Notes under the pieces: generated by a model
What the model saw: the letters and a program-made list of their open reading frames with translations, nothing else
The model's database searches: none
Told to the model about the DNA's origin: nothing
Program-made: the position numbers and the translations under genes
Assembly: GCA_025559845.1 (NCBI GenBank)
Contig: CP048469.1
Coordinates: 2,108,001 to 2,172,000, forward strand
Direction of reading: 5' to 3'
Source: Agrobacterium tumefaciens
GTDB taxonomy: Bacteria > Pseudomonadota > Alphaproteobacteria > Rhizobiales > Rhizobiaceae
Length of the DNA stretch: 64,000 nucleotides
In this document: one piece after another, positions 27,885 through 36,189 of the stretch
How the letters are laid out: each line of letters starts with the position of its first letter
Position numbering within the stretch: position 1 is the stretch's first letter

Positions 27885-28466
27885 TCACAGCCACTTCGGA
27901 ATATCAACCCGTTGATAGGTCTGCAATTTTCCGATCAAGGCTTCCGCATTGGCGTCAACAGAGGTCGAATGTCGGTGCGCGGCCGGCAGAAATTTCTCGA
28001 CAACCATGTGGTCGATGAAGCCCAGGAAGCTGTCGAAAAATCCCCGTGTATTCAAAAGACCGATCGGCTTGTCGATTTCGGAAAGCTGGTTCATCGTCCA
28101 GACTTCCATGAACTCCTCCATCGTCCCGATGCCGCCAGGCAAAGCAATGAAGGCATCCGCCAGTTCCGCCATGCGTTGCTTGCGTTCGCGAAGCGTCTGC
28201 GTCACTTCACAAAAGGTCAGCCCCTCGTGCGAGTGACCCTTTTCGTGAAGGCGAGCGGTGATGATGCCGTGAACCTCCCCACCGGATGACAGTGCCGCGT
28301 CGGCCACAACACCCATCAAACCCTTGGTCGTGCCACCATATATGAGTTGGATGCCGGCGTTACCAAGTGCGCGCCCCAGCGCCCTCGCCCCTTCTGCAAA
28401 CTCTTCCGATGCACCGTGGTTGGAGCCGCAAAACACGGCAATCGATTTGATATGACGGATCATCAT
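27885..28466 (-). CDS. LOG-family nucleotide 5'-monophosphate phosphoribohydrolase
   Basis: 193 residues with the Rossmann-like LOG fold: IAVFCGSNHGAS, LIYGGTTKGLMG, and the signature PGGIGTMEE (residues about 109-117), which binds the phosphoribosyl group. Family members release the free base from cytokinin or purine ribonucleotides (Lonely Guy, PpnN). Its start overlaps the stop of the acetamidase gene (ATGA), so it is the last gene of the amide operon rather than a separate housekeeping gene. That link is unusual and may mean the operon handles a nucleobase-like compound. Confidence 0.85.
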   Translation of the reverse strand: MMIRHIKSIAVFCGSNHGASEEFAEGARALGRALGNAGIQLIYGGTTKGLMGVVADAALSSGGEVHGIITARLHEKGHSHEGLTFCEVTQTLRERKQRMAELADAFIALPGGIGTMEEFMEVWTMNQLSEIDKPIGLLNTRGFFDSFLGFIDHMVVEKFLPAAHRHSTSVDANAEALIGKLQTYQRVDIPKWL

Positions 28467-29425
28467 GGCATTCCCTGATCAGACATGGCGGGCGACAGCG
28501 CCGATTTGGGGATCATCACATGTGCCCCCTTTTTGATGTTGACGAGCTGGGTGATCCGAACGTCCGCCGCAACGCTGCAGAAGGTATATGCATCCTCCGC
28601 GCTCATGCCCGTTCGCTTCCGGACAAGCGTGATGGCGTGACGCAAAGCCTCGCGCACCGCCCTCTCCAGCTCCTCGTCGAAACCCATAGAGATCAGGTGA
28701 GTCGATGTCTCGGCAAAAGGAGCGGAAATGTCGGTATTTTTGATCACCGTGATCCGAACACGACCAGACAATCCGGTCTCCACAGCGGTGAGACACACCT
28801 CGCCATCGCCCTGGGCCGCGTGTCCATCTCCGATCGAGACAAGAGCACCTTCGACGGATACAGGCAGGTAAAGCGTCGAGCCTGACGACAGCTCCTTATT
28901 GTCGATATTCCCGCCGAAATAACCGGGCACGACAGATGAACGTCGGCCATCCTCACGCCGTGGAGCAGTTGCAATAACGCCAAAGAAAGGACGCGCCAAA
29001 AGCGTACCTCCCCAGGGCGCAGCAATCGTGCCCATCGTCATGTCGATACCGAAATGCACCGTCCTTGATGCATCGAAATCGTCGGGCAACGCGCCCTTTC
29101 CTGGACGGATGATGTTGAAACCCCAATCATCGCGCAGGCTGACATCGAGAATGTCGATTTTGAGCATGTCGCCGGGCACCGCGCCATTAACGCGGATCGG
29201 CCCGGTGAGGATGTGCGGGCCAAGTTCAGGCGCAAGTGTCTGGTGGATGACGCCAAGTTCGGGGCGAACGCGATATCGGCCGACGGGGGCCTCTTCCGCA
29301 GACCCGCTGACCGAATGAACGGTCACGATGTCACCGCTGTCGATGCTGAGAACCGGTGAGAGGTTCCCGTCAAGGTAACCCCAGTGTACCGTCTCAACGC
29401 CCGGAAAAAGCTCATGCTCGGCCAT
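28463..29425 (-). CDS. Acetamidase/formamidase family protein
   Basis: About 320 residues, the usual family length. Recognisable stretches: VHWGYLDGNLSPVLSIDSGD at the N-terminus, GPHILTGPIRVNGAVPGDML, a central Gly/Asp-rich metal-binding part (GGNIDNKELSSGS, GDGHAAQGDGEVC) and the end LVNIKKGAHVMIPKS. The family hydrolyses short amides such as formamide and acetamide to ammonia and acid. Start placed at 29425, four bases after the DUF3830 stop; the frame to 29485 would overlap that gene. In this operon it could release formate or acetate from a ring-opened product. Confidence 0.88.
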   Translation of the reverse strand: MAEHELFPGVETVHWGYLDGNLSPVLSIDSGDIVTVHSVSGSAEEAPVGRYRVRPELGVIHQTLAPELGPHILTGPIRVNGAVPGDMLKIDILDVSLRDDWGFNIIRPGKGALPDDFDASRTVHFGIDMTMGTIAAPWGGTLLARPFFGVIATAPRREDGRRSSVVPGYFGGNIDNKELSSGSTLYLPVSVEGALVSIGDGHAAQGDGEVCLTAVETGLSGRVRITVIKNTDISAPFAETSTHLISMGFDEELERAVREALRHAITLVRKRTGMSAEDAYTFCSVAADVRITQLVNIKKGAHVMIPKSALSPAMSDQGMP

Positions 29426-29429
29426 CGGT

Positions 29430-29843
29430 TCAGGCCAGTTCGAAACGGATGGGCTGTGCGCCTTCCCAGAGCGTCTTCTTGCCAAGTGCCGCCAAGTTCT
29501 CCAGCCCCGATGTCAGTGTGATGAAATGGTTTCCGGCAAGCTGCCCCATTTTCGATGAGAAGTCGACGCCGCCATAGGCCAACAGAATTTCCGTTTCGCT
29601 GATACCTCCGGGGTAGAGGATGATGTGGCCCGGTGCGGGATGGCTGGTGTGGTTCTCGTAACCCACGCCAAAATCCTCATCCCCCAACGGCACCCAGACG
29701 CCCTCACCGCTCCACCGGACATGGACGATCTGACTGTCATAAGGGAGGCGCTCCAGGAAGGCCGCGCAGGTTTTCGGTGCATCCTGCATTTCAAGGCGAG
29801 CGGTGAAGGTGAACGGGCCGGCGGTGATCGTGAGTTCGGTCAT
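29430..29843 (-). CDS. DUF3830 family cyclophilin-like protein
   Basis: 137 residues, matching DUF3830, a cyclophilin-like beta barrel (TCAAFLERLPYDSQIVHVRW, HPAPGHIILYPGG, SETEILLAYGG). These proteins are repeatedly found beside hydantoinase, allantoinase or amidase genes, but their activity is not established. It sits between the ABC permease and the acetamidase in a tight operon, so a binding or accessory catalytic role in the same pathway is likely. Confidence 0.8.
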   Translation of the reverse strand: MTELTITAGPFTFTARLEMQDAPKTCAAFLERLPYDSQIVHVRWSGEGVWVPLGDEDFGVGYENHTSHPAPGHIILYPGGISETEILLAYGGVDFSSKMGQLAGNHFITLTSGLENLAALGKKTLWEGAQPIRFELA

Positions 29844-29888
29844 GAAAATTGTCCTGTAAATCCTGCATGAATGCCTTGGGGGGAGCGG

Positions 29889-30665
29889 TCAGCCGTTGGT
29901 GGCGAAACTGTCGCTGCGAACGGCCCAACCTGTCACTCGCGCCTCGATAGCCGAGAAGATGATGTAGAGAGTGACACCGAGCGCAGCGAGAATGAACAAT
30001 CCGGCAAAGACCAGCGGCACATCGAAGCTGGAGCTTGCGATCATCATCAGATTGCCGATGCCACGGTTCGATGCAACGGTTTCGGCAATGACGGTGCCGA
30101 CAAACGCCAGCGTCGCAGCGACTTTCAGTGAGGCGAAGAAATACGGCATGGTGCGTGGCAGGCCGATATTCCAGAGGATTTCGAGTTTCGTCGCCTTCAG
30201 CGTGCGCATGACGTCCTGCAACTCCGGTTCGGTAGAGGCGAGCCCGGTCGCGACATTGACGACGATGGGGAAGATGCACATCACCATTGCGGTCAAGATG
30301 GCTGGCACGGTTCCAGCCCCGAACCACAAGACCAGGATCGGCACGATCGCCACTTTCGGGATTGACGAAAAGCCGACCAGCATCGGATAGGCCACATCGT
30401 AAGCAAGCTTCGAAGAGCCGATGAGCATGCCGAGAAGCACACCAAGAAGAATGCCAAGCCCAAGCCCGACCAGCGTCGTGTAGATGGTCTGAAAGGCATG
30501 CGGCCAGATTGCCGGGAACTGGGTGATGAGCGTTGAAATCGCCTGCGTCGGTCTCGGCAGAACCATTTCAGATATGCCGAACATGAGGCAGATCAACTCC
30601 CAGGCGACGAAGGCCCCGAGAATGCAGCAGGCTGACAGAACGCGACGTTTGGTGTCCGGCTTCAT
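29889..30665 (-). CDS. ABC transporter permease, NitT/TauT (SsuC) type
   Basis: 258 residues with six hydrophobic helices and the binding-protein-dependent permease EAA loop (MRTLKATKLEILWNIGLPRT). The family imports nitrate, sulfonates, taurine, pyrimidine precursors and similar small anions or heterocycles. Overlaps the ATPase gene by 4 bases and forms the importer with the ATPase and the binding protein of this operon. Confidence 0.88.
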   Translation of the reverse strand: MKPDTKRRVLSACCILGAFVAWELICLMFGISEMVLPRPTQAISTLITQFPAIWPHAFQTIYTTLVGLGLGILLGVLLGMLIGSSKLAYDVAYPMLVGFSSIPKVAIVPILVLWFGAGTVPAILTAMVMCIFPIVVNVATGLASTEPELQDVMRTLKATKLEILWNIGLPRTMPYFFASLKVAATLAFVGTVIAETVASNRGIGNLMMIASSSFDVPLVFAGLFILAALGVTLYIIFSAIEARVTGWAVRSDSFATNG

Positions 30666-31501
30666 GGCTGATGCTCCTTGACGGCCCGGGCCGCGACGAT
30701 GCGCTCGCGAAGCCTCTGTGTGAGGGATACGAATTCGGGTTCGAACGAGATGTCGATGGTCCGCGGCCGGGCAAAGGGCACTGCACGATCCTCAATGATC
30801 CGCCCTGGTCGGGCCTGCATGATGCAGATGCGCGACGCCAGATACGCGGCCTCCTTGAGGTCATGGGTCACGAGCAGAACGGTCGGCTTCTTCTCGATCC
30901 AGAGGTTCTGCATGATCTCCCAGAGTTCCTCGCGGGTGAACTGGTCGAGCGCGCCGAACGGCTCGTCGAGCAACAGCAGCGTCGGGTCATGGATCAGCGC
31001 GCGGCAGAGCGAGGCGCGCTGTTGCATTCCCCCTGAAAGCTGCCAGGGAAACTTGTCGCCGAAACCGGATAACCCCACCTGTTCCAGCAAAGCCTCGGCC
31101 CGATCGCGATATTCGCCTTTCTTTTTCTTCGCATAGGCATGTTTGAATGGCGCAACGATTTTCAGCGGCATCATGACGTTGTCGCGCACATTGAGCCATG
31201 GCAGCAGTGTCGGGTTCTGGAAGGCCATGCCGATACGGACATCATTTGCGCCGATCTCACGGCCGGCCACGAAGATGTGGCCCTCCGACGGCGAGAGTGT
31301 TCCCGCAACGAGTTTGAGGATTGTCGACTTGCCGCAGCCGGAGGGTCCGACCAATGCGATGAACTCGCCATTCTCGATCCGCAGCGATGTTTCGGCCAGA
31401 GCGACGGTTTTGTTCTTTTCGCCACCGAAGGTGACGTTCACCCTTTCCAGATCGATGATTGCGTTGCGGACTGCAATTTCGGGAGCGAAAGCGATGGTCA
31501 T
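30662..31501 (-). CDS. ABC transporter ATP-binding protein, NitT/TauT (SsuB) type
   Basis: 279 residues. Walker A GPSGCGKST, Q-loop AFQNPTLLPW, signature LSGGMQQRASLCRALI, Walker B LLLLDEPFGALD and the switch His in LLVTHDLKEAAYL are all present. Its start overlaps the stop of the amidohydrolase gene (ATGA) and its end overlaps the permease, showing tight translational coupling of uptake and catabolism. Confidence 0.92.
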   Translation of the reverse strand: MTIAFAPEIAVRNAIIDLERVNVTFGGEKNKTVALAETSLRIENGEFIALVGPSGCGKSTILKLVAGTLSPSEGHIFVAGREIGANDVRIGMAFQNPTLLPWLNVRDNVMMPLKIVAPFKHAYAKKKKGEYRDRAEALLEQVGLSGFGDKFPWQLSGGMQQRASLCRALIHDPTLLLLDEPFGALDQFTREELWEIMQNLWIEKKPTVLLVTHDLKEAAYLASRICIMQARPGRIIEDRAVPFARPRTIDISFEPEFVSLTQRLRERIVAARAVKEHQP

Positions 31502-32952
31502 GCCGCCGCACTCCCCGTGTGAGATGGCACCTGAGAGGTAACGGCCGCAATCGTCTGATTCTCGTTTCGCACGTCCGGCACCGGCATAGACTGGATGTCA
31601 TGCACCGACCGTCCCCAACCGCGGGCATCTGCCTGAAGTTGGCGATCCTTCATGGCAAAGCGGCCGCGAACGATCGTGTGGATCGGCAGAGCAGTTGCGC
31701 GCATCCCGTGCCAGGGAGAGATTTTCGCCGTAGACTGGATCAGCGCATCATCGATCGTCCAGGCACGATTGGTATCGACAATGGCGATATCGGCATCCGA
31801 ACCAACCATCAGTGCGCCCTTCCTCGGGAAAAGTCCGAAGGATTTTGCCGGGTTCTCCGCACTCCAGCGCACATAATCCGACAGGCTGGCCCCGCGGCGG
31901 GCTATTTCCGTCAGCATCAGCGGCATCTGGGTTTCCACACCGGGAAAACCGCAATCGACCGTCCAGATATCGGCCCGTGTCTTTTCTTCAGGCGCATGCG
32001 GAGCGTGATCAGTGGCAATCATGTCAATGGTGCCATCAACAAGCGCCTGCCAGATCGGGTCCTGGTTTTCAACTTCACGGACCGGCGGATTGACGCGGAT
32101 AACCCCGCGCTTGGCTTCATAATCATCCGCAGACAACAGCAGATATTGCGGGCAAGTCTCACCGGTGATGTCAACGCCGCGTGCCTTTGCATCCGCCAGC
32201 GGCCGAAGCTCTGCGGCTGAGGAGATGTGGAGAATATGGATGCGCGCGCCGGTCCATTCGGCAAGGATCGCGGCGCGGGCAACCGCCTCCGTTGCCACCA
32301 CCGCCGGACGGGCGGCAAGGTGGGCAAGTGGATCGCTGCGCCCCATCTGGCGAAGGCGCGCTTCGCGACGCTCCATGATGGAGTTCGTTTCGGCATGCAG
32401 CGAAATGCGTTTGCCGGTCGGAGCGACGATCTCGAACAGTTCCAGCATCGCACCGGTTGTCGGCGACGGGATGCGACCGAAGGTATTGCCCATGTAGCAT
32501 TTGAAGCCGATCACGCCGCCTTCGATCAATTCACCGATATGCGGCAGGCTGTCCTCGCCAAGCACAGCATAAAGGCCGTAATCGACATGCGCCTTGGCAC
32601 TGGCAATCGCGTGCTTTTCCTTCAGCGATGCCGCGTCGGAAATTGCCGGCAGGGTGTTGGGCATGTCGAAGACAGTGGTGACACCGCCGAAGGCTGCCGC
32701 TGCCGTACCCGAGGCAAAGTCCTCCTTCTGCGCATAACCGGGATCACGGAAGTGCACATGGACGTCGATGGCGCCAGGAAGAATGTGCAGACCGGTCGCG
32801 TCAAGTTCCTCTTTTGCCTTCGGCATGGCGCTCTGCTCGCCAATCGCCAGGATCGCACCGTCCTTGATTGCGATACTGGCCTTGTACTCGGTGTCCGGTG
32901 ACACGATCGTGCCGCCGTGGATGACGAGATCGGCGATGATATCTGTGGTCAT
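31498..32952 (-). CDS. Allantoinase-like cyclic amidohydrolase (dihydroorotase family)
   Basis: About 484 residues; TIM-barrel metal hydrolase. All metal ligands of the hydantoinase/allantoinase group can be seen: HVHFRDPG, the carboxylated Lys in IGFKCYMGNTFG, His in SLHAETNS, His in ILHISSAAE and Asp in IATDHAPHAPEEK. Family enzymes open cyclic amides such as allantoin, hydantoins and dihydropyrimidines. About 30 residues at the C-terminus after VRNEN are extra. Start at 32952 has GGAAGG upstream; frame to 32982 adds 10 residues. It is 14 bp from the SDR and coupled to the ABC genes, so the substrate is probably imported. Sequence alone does not fix it as an allantoinase. Confidence 0.88.
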   Translation of the reverse strand: MTTDIIADLVIHGGTIVSPDTEYKASIAIKDGAILAIGEQSAMPKAKEELDATGLHILPGAIDVHVHFRDPGYAQKEDFASGTAAAAFGGVTTVFDMPNTLPAISDAASLKEKHAIASAKAHVDYGLYAVLGEDSLPHIGELIEGGVIGFKCYMGNTFGRIPSPTTGAMLELFEIVAPTGKRISLHAETNSIMERREARLRQMGRSDPLAHLAARPAVVATEAVARAAILAEWTGARIHILHISSAAELRPLADAKARGVDITGETCPQYLLLSADDYEAKRGVIRVNPPVREVENQDPIWQALVDGTIDMIATDHAPHAPEEKTRADIWTVDCGFPGVETQMPLMLTEIARRGASLSDYVRWSAENPAKSFGLFPRKGALMVGSDADIAIVDTNRAWTIDDALIQSTAKISPWHGMRATALPIHTIVRGRFAMKDRQLQADARGWGRSVHDIQSMPVPDVRNENQTIAAVTSQVPSHTGSAAA

Positions 32953-32966
32953 GACTTCCATCCTTC

Positions 32967-33758
32967 CTAGAGCGCGGCCCAACCGCCATCGACGGGCATA
33001 TCGACGCCGGTGATCTGGCGGGATACATCGCTGGCGAGAAACAGGCAGGCATTGGCAACGTCTTCATCGACGGTGATGCGTTTCAGCGCATAGTCCTCGG
33101 CGTGACGAATGGCGGCCTCTTCTTCCGTGATGCCGAGCTTTTGGGCCATCGTCCTGCAAACCTTGTCGCGGAAGCGCGGGCCATCCACCATGCCGGGGGC
33201 GACACAGTTGACGTTGACATTGTGCTGACCAACCTCAAGCGCGAAGCTCTTGGTAATGCCGCGCAGACCCCATTTGGAAGCGGAATAGGCAAGACGCCCG
33301 GCACGCCCCTTCATGCCGAAGGTGCCGCCGACATTCACGACCTTGCCGTAACGCTGGTCGATCATTGCCGGCAGAACGCTGCGGATCGTGTGGAAGCAGC
33401 CATTCATGTTCAAGGTGACGATCTCATCAAACTCCTCCGGCGTCGTCTCGGCGCCTGTCTTGCCCATCGGGCCGGAGCCGCCGGCGACATTGACCAGCAC
33501 ATCGATACGGCCGAACGTCTCGAGTGTTTTCGCAGCCGCCGCATCGCACTGCGCCGCATCGGTAAGATCGCAGCCAATGACGATAGCCTCGCAGCCCTTT
33601 GCTTCAAGCTCTTCGGCAATAGGCTCAATGGCTGCGGTGTCTCGGCCGATGAGTGCCAGTTTGCTGCCTTCGGCGGCGAATGCCCGCGTAATGGCTGCGC
33701 CCATGCCCTTTGCCGGGCCGGTGATGACCACGACTTTATCCGTGAGCTTCAGGTCCAT
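32967..33758 (-). CDS. SDR family oxidoreductase of the amide operon
   Basis: 263 residues. The TGPAKGMG cofactor motif, VNVAGGSG (NAG-equivalent) and YSASK catalytic pair are present; at the usual catalytic Ser position the sequence reads VVNVGGTFGMKGR, with Gly/Thr instead of Ser. The C-terminus DMPVDGGWAAL is typical. It probably reduces or oxidises a ring carbonyl or an alcohol on the imported substrate. Located between the binding-protein gene (62 bp gap) and the amidohydrolase gene. Confidence 0.87.
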   Translation of the reverse strand: MDLKLTDKVVVITGPAKGMGAAITRAFAAEGSKLALIGRDTAAIEPIAEELEAKGCEAIVIGCDLTDAAQCDAAAAKTLETFGRIDVLVNVAGGSGPMGKTGAETTPEEFDEIVTLNMNGCFHTIRSVLPAMIDQRYGKVVNVGGTFGMKGRAGRLAYSASKWGLRGITKSFALEVGQHNVNVNCVAPGMVDGPRFRDKVCRTMAQKLGITEEEAAIRHAEDYALKRITVDEDVANACLFLASDVSRQITGVDMPVDGGWAAL

Positions 33759-33820
33759 GATGTATTCCGTTCTCAGTATCTGGAGGATGAAAGGGAAACG
33801 GCGCCTGACGCGCCGCCCTT

Positions 33821-34870
33821 TTAGTTGACCGCAGTCAACAGATCGGTCTTGGCCGGAAGGAAGCTGCGGTCGAAGACTTCGCCGACGGCAGGCGTGCGCG
33901 GCAGGCCATTGGCGTTGACCAGAATGTCGATCGACTTGGCAAGACGCGCTTCATCGACATCCCCAAGGCCAACTTTGGCGACTTCGGGATGCGCCATTTC
34001 GTCGGCAATGGTCGCATCGAAACGTTCACGCTCGACGTCAGTCTTGAGCAGCGATTCGCGTGTCTTAACCGAAGCGACGGCGGCTTCGGGGTCCTTGATG
34101 GCATCCTTGATGCTTCTGTTGAGCGCACGCAGGAACCCCTTGATCGCTTCGGGATTCTCCTTGAGGAAGGACTTCGAAACGATGATGGCGTTGGAATAGA
34201 GATCCATGCCGTAGTCGCCGTATTTGATGAAGCGGATTTCCTTGTCAGGGTCGACACCGATCAGCTTGGCGCTGAAGCGGATGGTGTTGACGTAACCAAA
34301 AACGCCGTCGACCTGTCCTTTCATCAGCATCTGCTCGCGCAGGTTGGGCTGCATGTTGGTGACTTCCACCTTCGAGCAATCCGTCTTGCTGATCGAGCAG
34401 AAAGCCGGGAACAGCTTGAGCGCGCCGTCATTGGCAGCACCACCCAAAGTATGGCCGGCAAAATCTGCGGGTGATTTGATCGGGCTGTCAGCTTTGACGG
34501 CAATCGTGAAAGGCGGCTGATTGTACATCATGAAGACGCCAACCGGTGCATCCTCGGGTTTCTTCGCGGCGAACTCGATCAAGGCGTTGATGTCGCCAAA
34601 ACCCATGTCATAGGCACCATTGGCAACCAGCGGAACCGCAGCGCCCGAACCGTTTCCCTGGTCCATGGTGACGTTCAGACCCTCCTCCTTGAAGTAACCC
34701 TTGTCCTCGGCAAGGAATAGCAAACCCTGTGGCCCCTGATATTTCCAGTTCAGAACAAGCTTGATGTTGGTCTCGGCCTGTGCAGCTGCCGCCGTGGCGA
34801 ATGTTGCAAGCGCAGTCATAGCGGCAAGTGCTGCCATACGGGCACGCGTTTTCATCTGGTGGTGAGCCAT
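33821..34870 (-). CDS. ABC substrate-binding protein, NMT1/THI5-like
   Basis: 349 residues with signal peptide (MAALAAMTALATFATAAAAQA). The mature N-terminus NIKLVLNWKYQGPQGLLFLA has the Asn-Trp pair of the NMT1/THI5 group, which includes binding proteins for pyrimidine precursors of thiamin. Two cysteines (FCSISKTDC) may form a disulfide. AAGGGAAC precedes the ATG at 34870. First gene of the eight-gene operon, divergent from its LysR regulator. The ligand is unknown; heterocycles such as pyrimidines or hydantoins are reasonable candidates. Confidence 0.87.
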   Translation of the reverse strand: MAHHQMKTRARMAALAAMTALATFATAAAAQAETNIKLVLNWKYQGPQGLLFLAEDKGYFKEEGLNVTMDQGNGSGAAVPLVANGAYDMGFGDINALIEFAAKKPEDAPVGVFMMYNQPPFTIAVKADSPIKSPADFAGHTLGGAANDGALKLFPAFCSISKTDCSKVEVTNMQPNLREQMLMKGQVDGVFGYVNTIRFSAKLIGVDPDKEIRFIKYGDYGMDLYSNAIIVSKSFLKENPEAIKGFLRALNRSIKDAIKDPEAAVASVKTRESLLKTDVERERFDATIADEMAHPEVAKVGLGDVDEARLAKSIDILVNANGLPRTPAVGEVFDRSFLPAKTDLLTAVN

Positions 34871-35016
34871 TGCTTGTTCCCTTTATCTTGTTAGTTGGGG
34901 CCGCCGTGTCCGGCTGCTCGTTATGTTGCAACGCGACAATGCCACTGTTCAGTGAATACATCTACCGCTATTCTTGTGTTTCAGCGGTGCCAAAAAGGCC
35001 TCACTCGGAGATGACG

Positions 35017-35907
35017 ATGCGCCACCTCAAGCTGTTGCAGCAGATATCTGAAATCGCACGCGTCGGCTCGATCCGCCTGGCGGCGGAAAAGATGAACATC
35101 ACCGCCTCGGCAATGAACCGGAAAATCCAGGATCTCGAAGTTGAACTTGATACGCCGATCTTCGAACGACATGCGCGCGGTGTGAAATTGACGGCAGCGG
35201 GCGAAATGTTCGTGCGTTACGCCCGCAGCCAGATCGCCGATGCGGAGCGCCTGAGTTCTCAGGTTGAAGACCTGCGTGGCCTCCGGCGCGGTCCGGTCAA
35301 GATTGCCTGCAGTCAGGCACTGGCGCTTGACTTCCTGCCTTCACAGATCGGCGAATTTCGCAAGGCAAACCCTCGCCTCGTCTTCGACATCAAGGTCATG
35401 GACCACAATGCGGCCATTAACGCGCTGATCGACTACGACGTCGACCTCGCCATCGTCTACCGGGCAGTGATGCGACCCGCTGTGCGAATTCTGGCCTCAG
35501 TGCCTCAGCGGCTTGTCGCGATCATGCGCGACGACCACCCTCTCACCGCCAAGCAGACCTTGCGACTGTCCGACTGTGTCGGGTATCCGCTCGCATTGCC
35601 CGATCAAAGCCTCGGAGGCAGACAGGTTCTCGATGAAGTCATCGCCAGACGTGATTTTCGCTTCGATGTCATGGCCGAGTCCAACTCCTTCGAAATGCTT
35701 CGCGGTCTGGTGCTGCGCGGGAACATGATCTCGTTCCAGATCGATGTCGGTGCTCCGCGCCAGGAGTTCGGCATGGGCGTCGTCGGTCGCCCCATCGACG
35801 AACGCGACATCCCGCGCTCCGATCTCGTCATGTGCCAACTCAGAGGACGCATCCTGCCACTGGCGGCAGCAAGCTTCGCCGATCAGATCGTGCGGGCGAC
35901 GGCGTAA
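35017..35907 (+). CDS. LysR-family transcriptional regulator of the amide operon
   Basis: About 296 residues. The N-terminal winged helix (MRHLKLLQQISEIARVGSIR, then AAEKMNITASAMNRKIQDLE and PIFERHARGVKLTAAGE) and the effector domain (KIACSQALALDFLPSQIGEF, YDVDLAIVY) are intact. Two ATGs occur; the one at 35017 is correctly spaced from CGGAG, while the one at 35011 abuts it. Divergent from the binding-protein gene across 146 bp, the normal arrangement for a LysR activator and its target. Confidence 0.9.
   Translation: MRHLKLLQQISEIARVGSIRLAAEKMNITASAMNRKIQDLEVELDTPIFERHARGVKLTAAGEMFVRYARSQIADAERLSSQVEDLRGLRRGPVKIACSQALALDFLPSQIGEFRKANPRLVFDIKVMDHNAAINALIDYDVDLAIVYRAVMRPAVRILASVPQRLVAIMRDDHPLTAKQTLRLSDCVGYPLALPDQSLGGRQVLDEVIARRDFRFDVMAESNSFEMLRGLVLRGNMISFQIDVGAPRQEFGMGVVGRPIDERDIPRSDLVMCQLRGRILPLAAASFADQIVRATA

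Positions 35908-36113: not shown

Positions 36114-36189
<76 letters not shown>

Follow-up and report, generated by a model that had tools for sequence, protein, structure and literature searches.

Which compound is taken up and degraded by the products of an operon in Agrobacterium tumefaciens that combines a transporter with a reductase, a cyclic amidohydrolase and an amidase? The operon lies in a stretch of 64,000 nucleotides (assembly GCA_025559845.1, contig CP048469.1, positions 2,108,001 to 2,172,000), called the window here; the host genome comprises 6.3 Mb in four contigs. An earlier note on this DNA had read the genes as a single operon for the catabolism of some cyclic amide or nucleobase-like substance, and the gene set and its conservation support that much. 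The gene set, its conservation, the active-site residues and the mutual exclusion of two amidases can be read directly in the sequences, and from these we infer every reaction and the substrate. The answer proposed here, to which we give an even chance, is that the substrate imported is an unsaturated cyclic ureide whose six-membered ring bears a carboxylate, and that it would be used as a source of nitrogen; tentatively, this would be oxonate (5-azaorotate, an s-triazine) or a close relative.

Eight genes on the minus strand and a divergent gene for a LysR-type regulator on the plus strand were confirmed in the window, and a Pfam scan returned NMT1, adh_short, Amidohydro_1, ABC_tran, BPD_transp_1, DUF3830, FmdA_AmdA, Lysine_decarbox (LOG) and HTH_1/LysR_substrate. 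In order of transcription, followed by the divergent region and the regulator, these are:

33821..34870, minus strand: SBP, an NMT1/THI5-like periplasmic solute-binding protein, operon gene 1 (PF09084, 142.8 bits)
32967..33758, minus strand: SDR reductase (PF00106; 67 sequences compared)
31498..32952, minus strand: AHase, a putative dihydroorotase-type cyclic amidohydrolase (metal ligands and R69/N99/H319)
30662..31501, minus strand: ABC transporter ATPase (PF00005)
29889..30665, minus strand: ABC transporter permease (PF00528)
29430..29843, minus strand: DUF3830 protein (PF12903)
28463..29425, minus strand: AmdA, an acetamidase/formamidase-family amidase, proposed decarbamoylase (PF03069)
27885..28466, minus strand: LOG-family nucleotide N-glycosidase (TIGR00730, 160.4 bits against a cut-off of 96.35; motif PGGIGTMEE)
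34871..35010, no strand: divergent region of 140 bp between the SBP and LysR genes, presumed promoters (resembles the same region in genome G014 and locus L037)
35011..35907, plus strand: LysR-type regulator, divergent (PF00126, PF03466)

True 4-bp ATGA overlaps occur at three junctions (AHase/ATPase, 31498-31501; ATPase/permease, 30662-30665; AmdA/LOG, 28463-28466), and the gap between the DUF3830 and AmdA genes is 4 bp, provided that the start of AmdA is the ATG at 29425 and not the TTG of the mechanical open reading frame (ORF). The probable ATG starts of the AHase (32952) and LysR (35011) genes likewise differ from the starts of the mechanical ORFs (32982 and 34828, respectively). No inverted repeats of at least 7 bp were found in the divergent region. 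Coordinates, Pfam families and overlaps agree, and the eight-gene operon with its divergent LysR gene, as first described, is real.

An initial scan of named genomes and plasmids gave 79 loci, from which L100 and L103-L115, with identities no higher than 42%, were excluded; the other 65, four plasmid loci and the window make up a comparative set of 70. The name core loci is used for the 48 of these that have an SDR gene, that carry a transporter gene no more than 9.5 kb away and that extend for 3 kb or more to either side; a few of them (e.g., L071, L095, L096) carry other ABC genes. Some members of the set are near-duplicates, as with L037 (99% identical to the window) and with L042, L043 and L047, all from Tardiphaga. 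The loci are mostly from Alphaproteobacteria, together with Salinisphaera, Halomonas, Halopseudomonas and Burkholderiales; of the named genomes scanned, Rhizobium sp. RM is the closest (AHase 99% identical). Among 385 genomes from the class, six, the host's own included, held an AHase at E ≤1e-120 (at most four candidates scored per genome), and an AmdA more than 70% identical was found in G014 only, among 120 relatives searched. The operon is, then, conserved yet patchy and widely spread; the gene order, which the earlier note had proposed to look for in other Rhizobiaceae, is conserved there and far beyond. A tRNA-Thr gene stands at 36114-36189 of the window, just past the LysR gene, and could, given the patchy distribution, mark the border of an island.

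An SDR gene is present at 67 of the 70 AHase loci and, in 60 of these 67, lies directly upstream of the AHase gene (same strand, at most 250 bp), an order that exceeds chance. The three loci without it are L052 and L074, where the AHase gene stands at the end of a contig or stretch, and L097, where there is an OCD-family gene instead. Other members recur too, in the 48 core loci as follows: AH2, a COG0402-type deaminase (31; one AH2 reference, with stops in frame, was omitted), DUF3830 (20), LOG (18), AmdA (17), ISO, a RutB-like amidase (17), and AtzD, a cyanuric acid hydrolase-type amidohydrolase (15). A locus in Hoeflea (L086) combines ISO, SBP, SDR, AHase, transporter genes, a second SBP, AH2, AtzD, DUF3830 and LOG. 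The families listed in the earlier note were named correctly; what its reading missed were further conserved members that are absent from the window operon: AtzD, ISO, and the deaminase with its second SBP. Five further genomes, taken from the search of 385 and only partly independent as they perhaps share species with the main scan (L148 resembles the Skermanella loci), gave the same picture, with the SDR gene next to the AHase gene in four and the order AtzD, SDR, ISO, AHase in the fifth (L151, genome G421). In L151 (1-15000), the AHase gene is followed by genes for an M20 hydrolase, two Rieske oxygenases, a creatininase-family protein and another amidohydrolase. There is also a sphingomonad-type variant in eight loci (L033, L069, L071, L078, L079, L081, L085, L099), in which SDR-AHase stands beside LysR and HyuA/HyuB, with a 2OG oxygenase in seven of the eight (the contig ends in L099); ABC genes of the kind in the window operon are not found next to the AHase gene in these loci, and L071 has ABC genes beyond the oxygenase.

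What does the AHase act on? Its metal ligands are complete, as the earlier note had stated, and all six were located (H65, H67, K151, H186, H242, D315). Three further residues, R69, N99 and H319, are kept in 74 of 75 aligned AHase rows (second copies in some loci included), the window's among them, the exception being a stray hydantoinase-like paralogue (L090_17801); they are likewise present in the AHases of all five further genomes. In PMC12809426, Arg60, Asn89 and His306 of the dihydroorotase of M. jannaschii are described as binding the alpha-carboxylate of the substrate, and Thr1562-Phe1563 in a loop of the human dihydroorotase as contacting the carboxyl groups of the substrate. The three M. 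jannaschii residues were equated with R69, N99 and H319 by motif, that protein standing outside the alignment. The AHase has a Thr at position 157 in 68 of 75 rows and a Phe at position 158 in 65 of 75 (L151 and L152 have Thr at 158). This T157-F158 pair presumably corresponds to the human Thr-Phe loop, going by the spacing from the carboxylated Lys in the human protein. Two allantoinase references, which pass the model PRK06189, also have N at 99, but position 69 is N or D in them and position 319 is A or C; where the window AHase reads HVHFRDPG, MPNT and TDHAPH, they have N/D after HxH, MPLN and SDHSP. In a tree, 74 of 75 AHase rows form one group (support 99/98), which is joined first by the haloarchaeal references and next by those for dihydroorotase; support for the branch between this side and the allantoinases is 93/69, with long branches flagged. 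The active site of the AHase is, judged by these residues, dihydroorotase-type and would suit a carboxylated substrate.

The model scores straddle allantoinase and dihydroorotase, and the residues at 69, 99 and 319 are taken to decide. Above its cut-off is the broad subfamily model TIGR00857 (330.5 against 279.05 bits). Two scores weigh against the assignment: the AHase exceeds the cut-off of the allantoinase model TIGR03178 (367.3 against 357.85) and stays below that of every dihydroorotase equivalog (best, PRK09060, 371.2 against 482). The first of these, together with the allB annotation in the records of several relatives, would fit ordinary catabolism of allantoin or of hydantoins, the latter being among the candidates of the earlier note. 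The stricter allantoinase models PRK06189 (377 against 631 bits) and PRK08044 (273.9 against 688) are missed, the key residues differ from those of both references, and among the 21 families shared by four or more of the 70 loci (assigned partly by eye) no gene for allantoate, ureidoglycine or ureidoglycolate was recognised. This explanation is, therefore, rather improbable; an allantoinase identity of the AHase itself was rejected on the residues at positions 69 and 319. "Allantoinase-like", as the enzyme had been called, is misleading as a guide to the substrate, and the allantoinase label on several such genes is to be distrusted. The haloarchaeal "allB" loci L034 and L035 were rejected as the same system, as the AHase alone was matched there (tblastn). 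Elsewhere in the host genome (G000 contig C1, about 1038776-1039966), a dihydroorotase-like protein (L119) reads RVF in place of the metal-binding HxH; it is encoded beside a gene read as aspartate carbamoyltransferase and is probably its non-catalytic partner.

The SDR does not have the classical Ser-Tyr-Lys set: throughout 67 sequences the catalytic Ser is replaced by Gly (Gly145), with Tyr158 and Lys162 kept and Arg155 and Arg195 invariant, and Arg39, at an NADP-type position, is found in all 66 rows that cover the site. Nearby SDRs of the five further genomes all have Gly at the Ser position, that of L152 being 48% identical and lacking Arg155. C=C or C=N bonds are the targets of SDRs without the Ser, for example, enoyl reductases and dihydropteridine reductase. 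Because the Ser is replaced while Tyr, Lys and two Arg are kept, the sequence suggests that this enzyme acts on an acidic substrate, in which it would reduce a C=N or C=C ring bond.

What happens to the opened ring is suggested by two amidases that replace each other. AmdA is present in 17 and ISO in 17 of the 48 core loci, and in none are both together (Fisher p 8e-5). All 17 ISO proteins keep the catalytic D, K and C, and nine aligned with E. coli RutB share D24, K133, R135 and C166 with it (27-36% identity). Two ISO proteins scored well below the models for RutB (136.4 and 108.5 against 377.95 bits) and biuret hydrolase (115.1 and 108.6 against 370 bits). The biuret hydrolase BiuH requires Lys145, three residues past the catalytic Lys, according to PMC5806882. 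At that position, located by spacing from the catalytic Lys without BiuH being aligned, none of the nine ISO rows has a Lys, and a plain biuret hydrolase was rejected; ISO is closer in character to ureido-acid amidases than to biuret hydrolases. As AmdA and ISO exclude each other, AmdA, too, probably removes a carbamoyl group. The release of formate or acetate that had been predicted for AmdA is weakened by this exclusion and by the score of AmdA against the formamidase equivalog NF045496 (79.4 against 500 bits), PF03069 being the only model that it satisfies.

The exclusion also bears on whether the genes belong to one pathway at all. They might form a mixed island, in which one transporter and one regulator serve several unrelated nitrogen heterocycles and in which AtzD, AH2, AmdA, DUF3830 and LOG have no link to SDR-AHase. 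The extra genes do occur in many combinations, and 12 of 15 pairs are without association at p <0.04. Against this stand the counts for AmdA and ISO (17, 17 and 0 of 48), the contiguous AtzD-SDR-ISO-AHase genes of G421, where the ISO and AHase genes overlap by 4 bp, and the presence of DUF3830 beside a different cyclic amidohydrolase in the host's own genome and in six congeneric ones. We consider a mixed island unlikely.

A link of the proposed cyclic ureide to s-triazines comes from the related loci. The Ser/Lys dyads of cyanuric acid hydrolase are conserved in the AtzD genes of 16 loci, as is the equivalent of its Arg188, and the four AtzD proteins that were scored all exceed the cyanuric acid hydrolase cut-off of 360 bits (519-550). 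The AtzD of Aquabacter matches the crystallised cyanuric acid hydrolase of Azorhizobium caulinodans over its full length (PDB 4nq3, 537.8 bits), an enzyme for which PMC4051656 gives a kcat of about 50 per second on cyanuric acid. AtzD accompanies ISO in 10 of its 15 core loci (p 0.004). Downstream of the main set, five loci have a parallel module, in which an OCD-family gene is combined with genes for a second deaminase (AH19) and a second AHase; in L097, the module has its own ABC genes. The loci concerned are L065, L070, L092, L097, L098 and L102, with a 4-bp overlap of the OCD and deaminase genes in all except L098. For the two proteins of each kind that were scored, the best NCBIfam model of OCD was Delta1-pyrroline/piperideine-2-carboxylate reductase (145 and 154 bits, below the cut-off of 322), and that of AH19 was 8-oxoguanine deaminase or N-ethylammeline chlorohydrolase, again below the cut-off.

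Taken together, these observations are consistent with a pathway of four steps. The SBP, ATPase and permease would import the substrate; the SDR would reduce its C=N (or C=C) bond using NADPH; the AHase would open the reduced ring to a ureido (N-carbamoyl) acid; and the carbamoyl group would be removed as NH3 and CO2, by AmdA here and by the RutB-like amidase in other species. LysR would be the regulator of the operon. Oxonate is favoured because it suits both the logic of the reductase and the dihydroorotase pocket and agrees with the association with cyanuric acid hydrolase; it is a possible substrate rather than a probable one. By chemical reasoning, its dihydro form, once opened, would decay to ureidoglycine.

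The runner-up is orotate, which the SDR would convert to dihydroorotate, with the AHase as a catabolic dihydroorotase and AmdA or ISO as a ureidosuccinase, which would yield aspartate, NH3 and CO2 from N-carbamoylaspartate. No additional enzymes would be required, the AHase site matches dihydroorotase down to the carboxylate residues and the Thr-Phe loop, and BiuH, which has the same fold as ISO, has been caught covalently with N-carbamoylaspartate, there an inhibitor (PMC5806882). Orotate leaves AtzD (16 loci), AH2 with the second SBP (AH2 in 31 of 48 core loci) and LOG unexplained, and its ring has a C=C bond, whereas the OCD protein of the parallel module is nearest to C=N reductases. It is thus an improbable substrate. 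Beyond oxonate alone, the operon family may represent a natural catabolism of s-triazines that arise from oxidised purines, with oxonate passing through the SDR, the dihydroorotase-type enzyme and decarbamoylation, amino-triazine relatives first being deaminated by AH2, and cyanuric acid being opened by AtzD. This proposal is speculative and may well be wrong; if true, it would give cyanuric acid hydrolases their native context. As relatives of these hydrolases stand in a widespread operon with a reductase, a hydrolase and ureide amidases, their natural role becomes testable with a short list of compounds.

Several points weigh against oxonate and the cyclic ureide. The host's own genome gave no match to AtzD, in a search in which five other genomes or records did, and no orthologue of AH2 (best match, 28% identical). 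Just 2 of the 17 AmdA-bearing core loci, the type of the window, contain AtzD (p 0.05; the loci are related, and this and the other Fisher p values overstate independence). As AtzD is rare among AmdA loci, the triazine argument rests above all on the ISO-type relatives. In 14 of the 48 core loci there is neither AmdA nor ISO, and the score thresholds for gene counts in core loci were fixed after a first pass. An SDR that acts on a ring of this kind is not known to us, no search having been made for one, and that oxonate is a common natural compound is an assumption. A literature search on the breakdown of allantoxanate, oxonate or biuret gave one match, the crystal structure of an oxonate salt; none on point was found for orotate catabolism among the best 20 of 25 matches, or for oxonate with gut flora and cyanuric acid among the best 15 of 5,192. 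Among the matches listed, none described the operon by its title or the start of its abstract, most subscription papers being outside the scope of the search.

DUF3830, for which a full-text literature search found no paper, gains a functional context from the operon family. Sixteen copies from related loci are 61-89% identical to that of the window. A second copy in the host genome (G000 contig C2, 2238000-2257500, L137; 79% identical) directly follows a dihydropyrimidinase-like gene, and among ten stretches at DUF3830 genes outside the operon, seven have such a neighbour (L137, L139, L140, L141, L143, L144, L145) and three do not (L142, L146, L147). DUF3830 thus tends to accompany cyclic amidohydrolases, with which it may work together. 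The operon in L137 also contains an SBP_bac_3-type ABC transporter, a DapA-family gene and a large FAD oxidoreductase.

Is LOG the defining step? If it were, the operon would salvage cytokinins or thiamin pyrimidines, which the earlier note had listed among candidate substrates. The LOG gene overlaps that of AmdA by 4 bp, as the note reported, and LOG recurs in 18 of 48 core loci while relatives' genomes hold just 1-3 LOG-family genes (21 of 21 searched), mostly two, so it belongs to the operon; the host genome has three, one being the operon copy. The SBP is also kin to THI5/THI13 and the formylaminopyrimidine-binding protein, its best solved matches together with an unnamed solute-binding protein. 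Support for such substrates is limited to the LOG gene and this distant kinship. LOG misses the cytokinin equivalog NF058542 (109 against 300 bits) and was not found near the AHase in 30 of 48 core loci, and there is no thiamin or isoprenoid gene in the operon, nor was one recognised among the recurrent families. In the sister genome G014, AmdA, DUF3830 and the permease have open frames and the other genes were matched, whereas LOG (L138:8067-8500) is only an ORF of 92 amino acids in which the PGGxGT motif is altered, a different frame showing further similarity; because the gene there appears to be a remnant, LOG is accessory in that genome. Salvage of cytokinins or thiamin pyrimidines is, accordingly, very improbable. 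LOG may instead have a house-cleaning role, hydrolysing unwanted nucleotides formed from a base analogue.

How does the proposed cyclic ureide pathway compare with known systems? With the AllB allantoinase, the AHase shares the cyclic amidohydrolase superfamily, and it scores above the cut-off of one allantoinase model; unlike that system, its substrate residues are those of dihydroorotase, and no other allantoin gene was recognised among recurrent neighbours. As in cyanuric acid catabolism (PMC4051656 and PMC5806882), the relatives' AtzD is by sequence a cyanuric acid hydrolase and ISO has the fold of BiuH. Unlike that system, the aligned ISO rows are without Lys at the BiuH Lys145 position and the strain itself is without AtzD. 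To our knowledge, the SDR and AHase have no counterpart there. RutB of E. coli is a ureidoacrylate amidohydrolase, with a ureido acid as its substrate. ISO differs from it in being 27-36% identical and far under the RutB cut-off, and no RutA was found among recurrent members, while the catalytic D/K/C and the K-x-R motif are common to both. Reductive pyrimidine catabolism consists of dihydropyrimidine dehydrogenase, dihydropyrimidinase and ureidopropionase, the classical route of orotate fermentation being comparable. The reductase of those routes is a flavo-iron-sulfur dehydrogenase, in contrast to the SDR (Ser to Gly) of the operon, which also has a dihydroorotase-type hydrolase and AmdA or a RutB-like amidase for the last step. 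The logic would nevertheless be the same: a ring is reduced, opened by a cyclic amidohydrolase, and relieved of its carbamoyl group.

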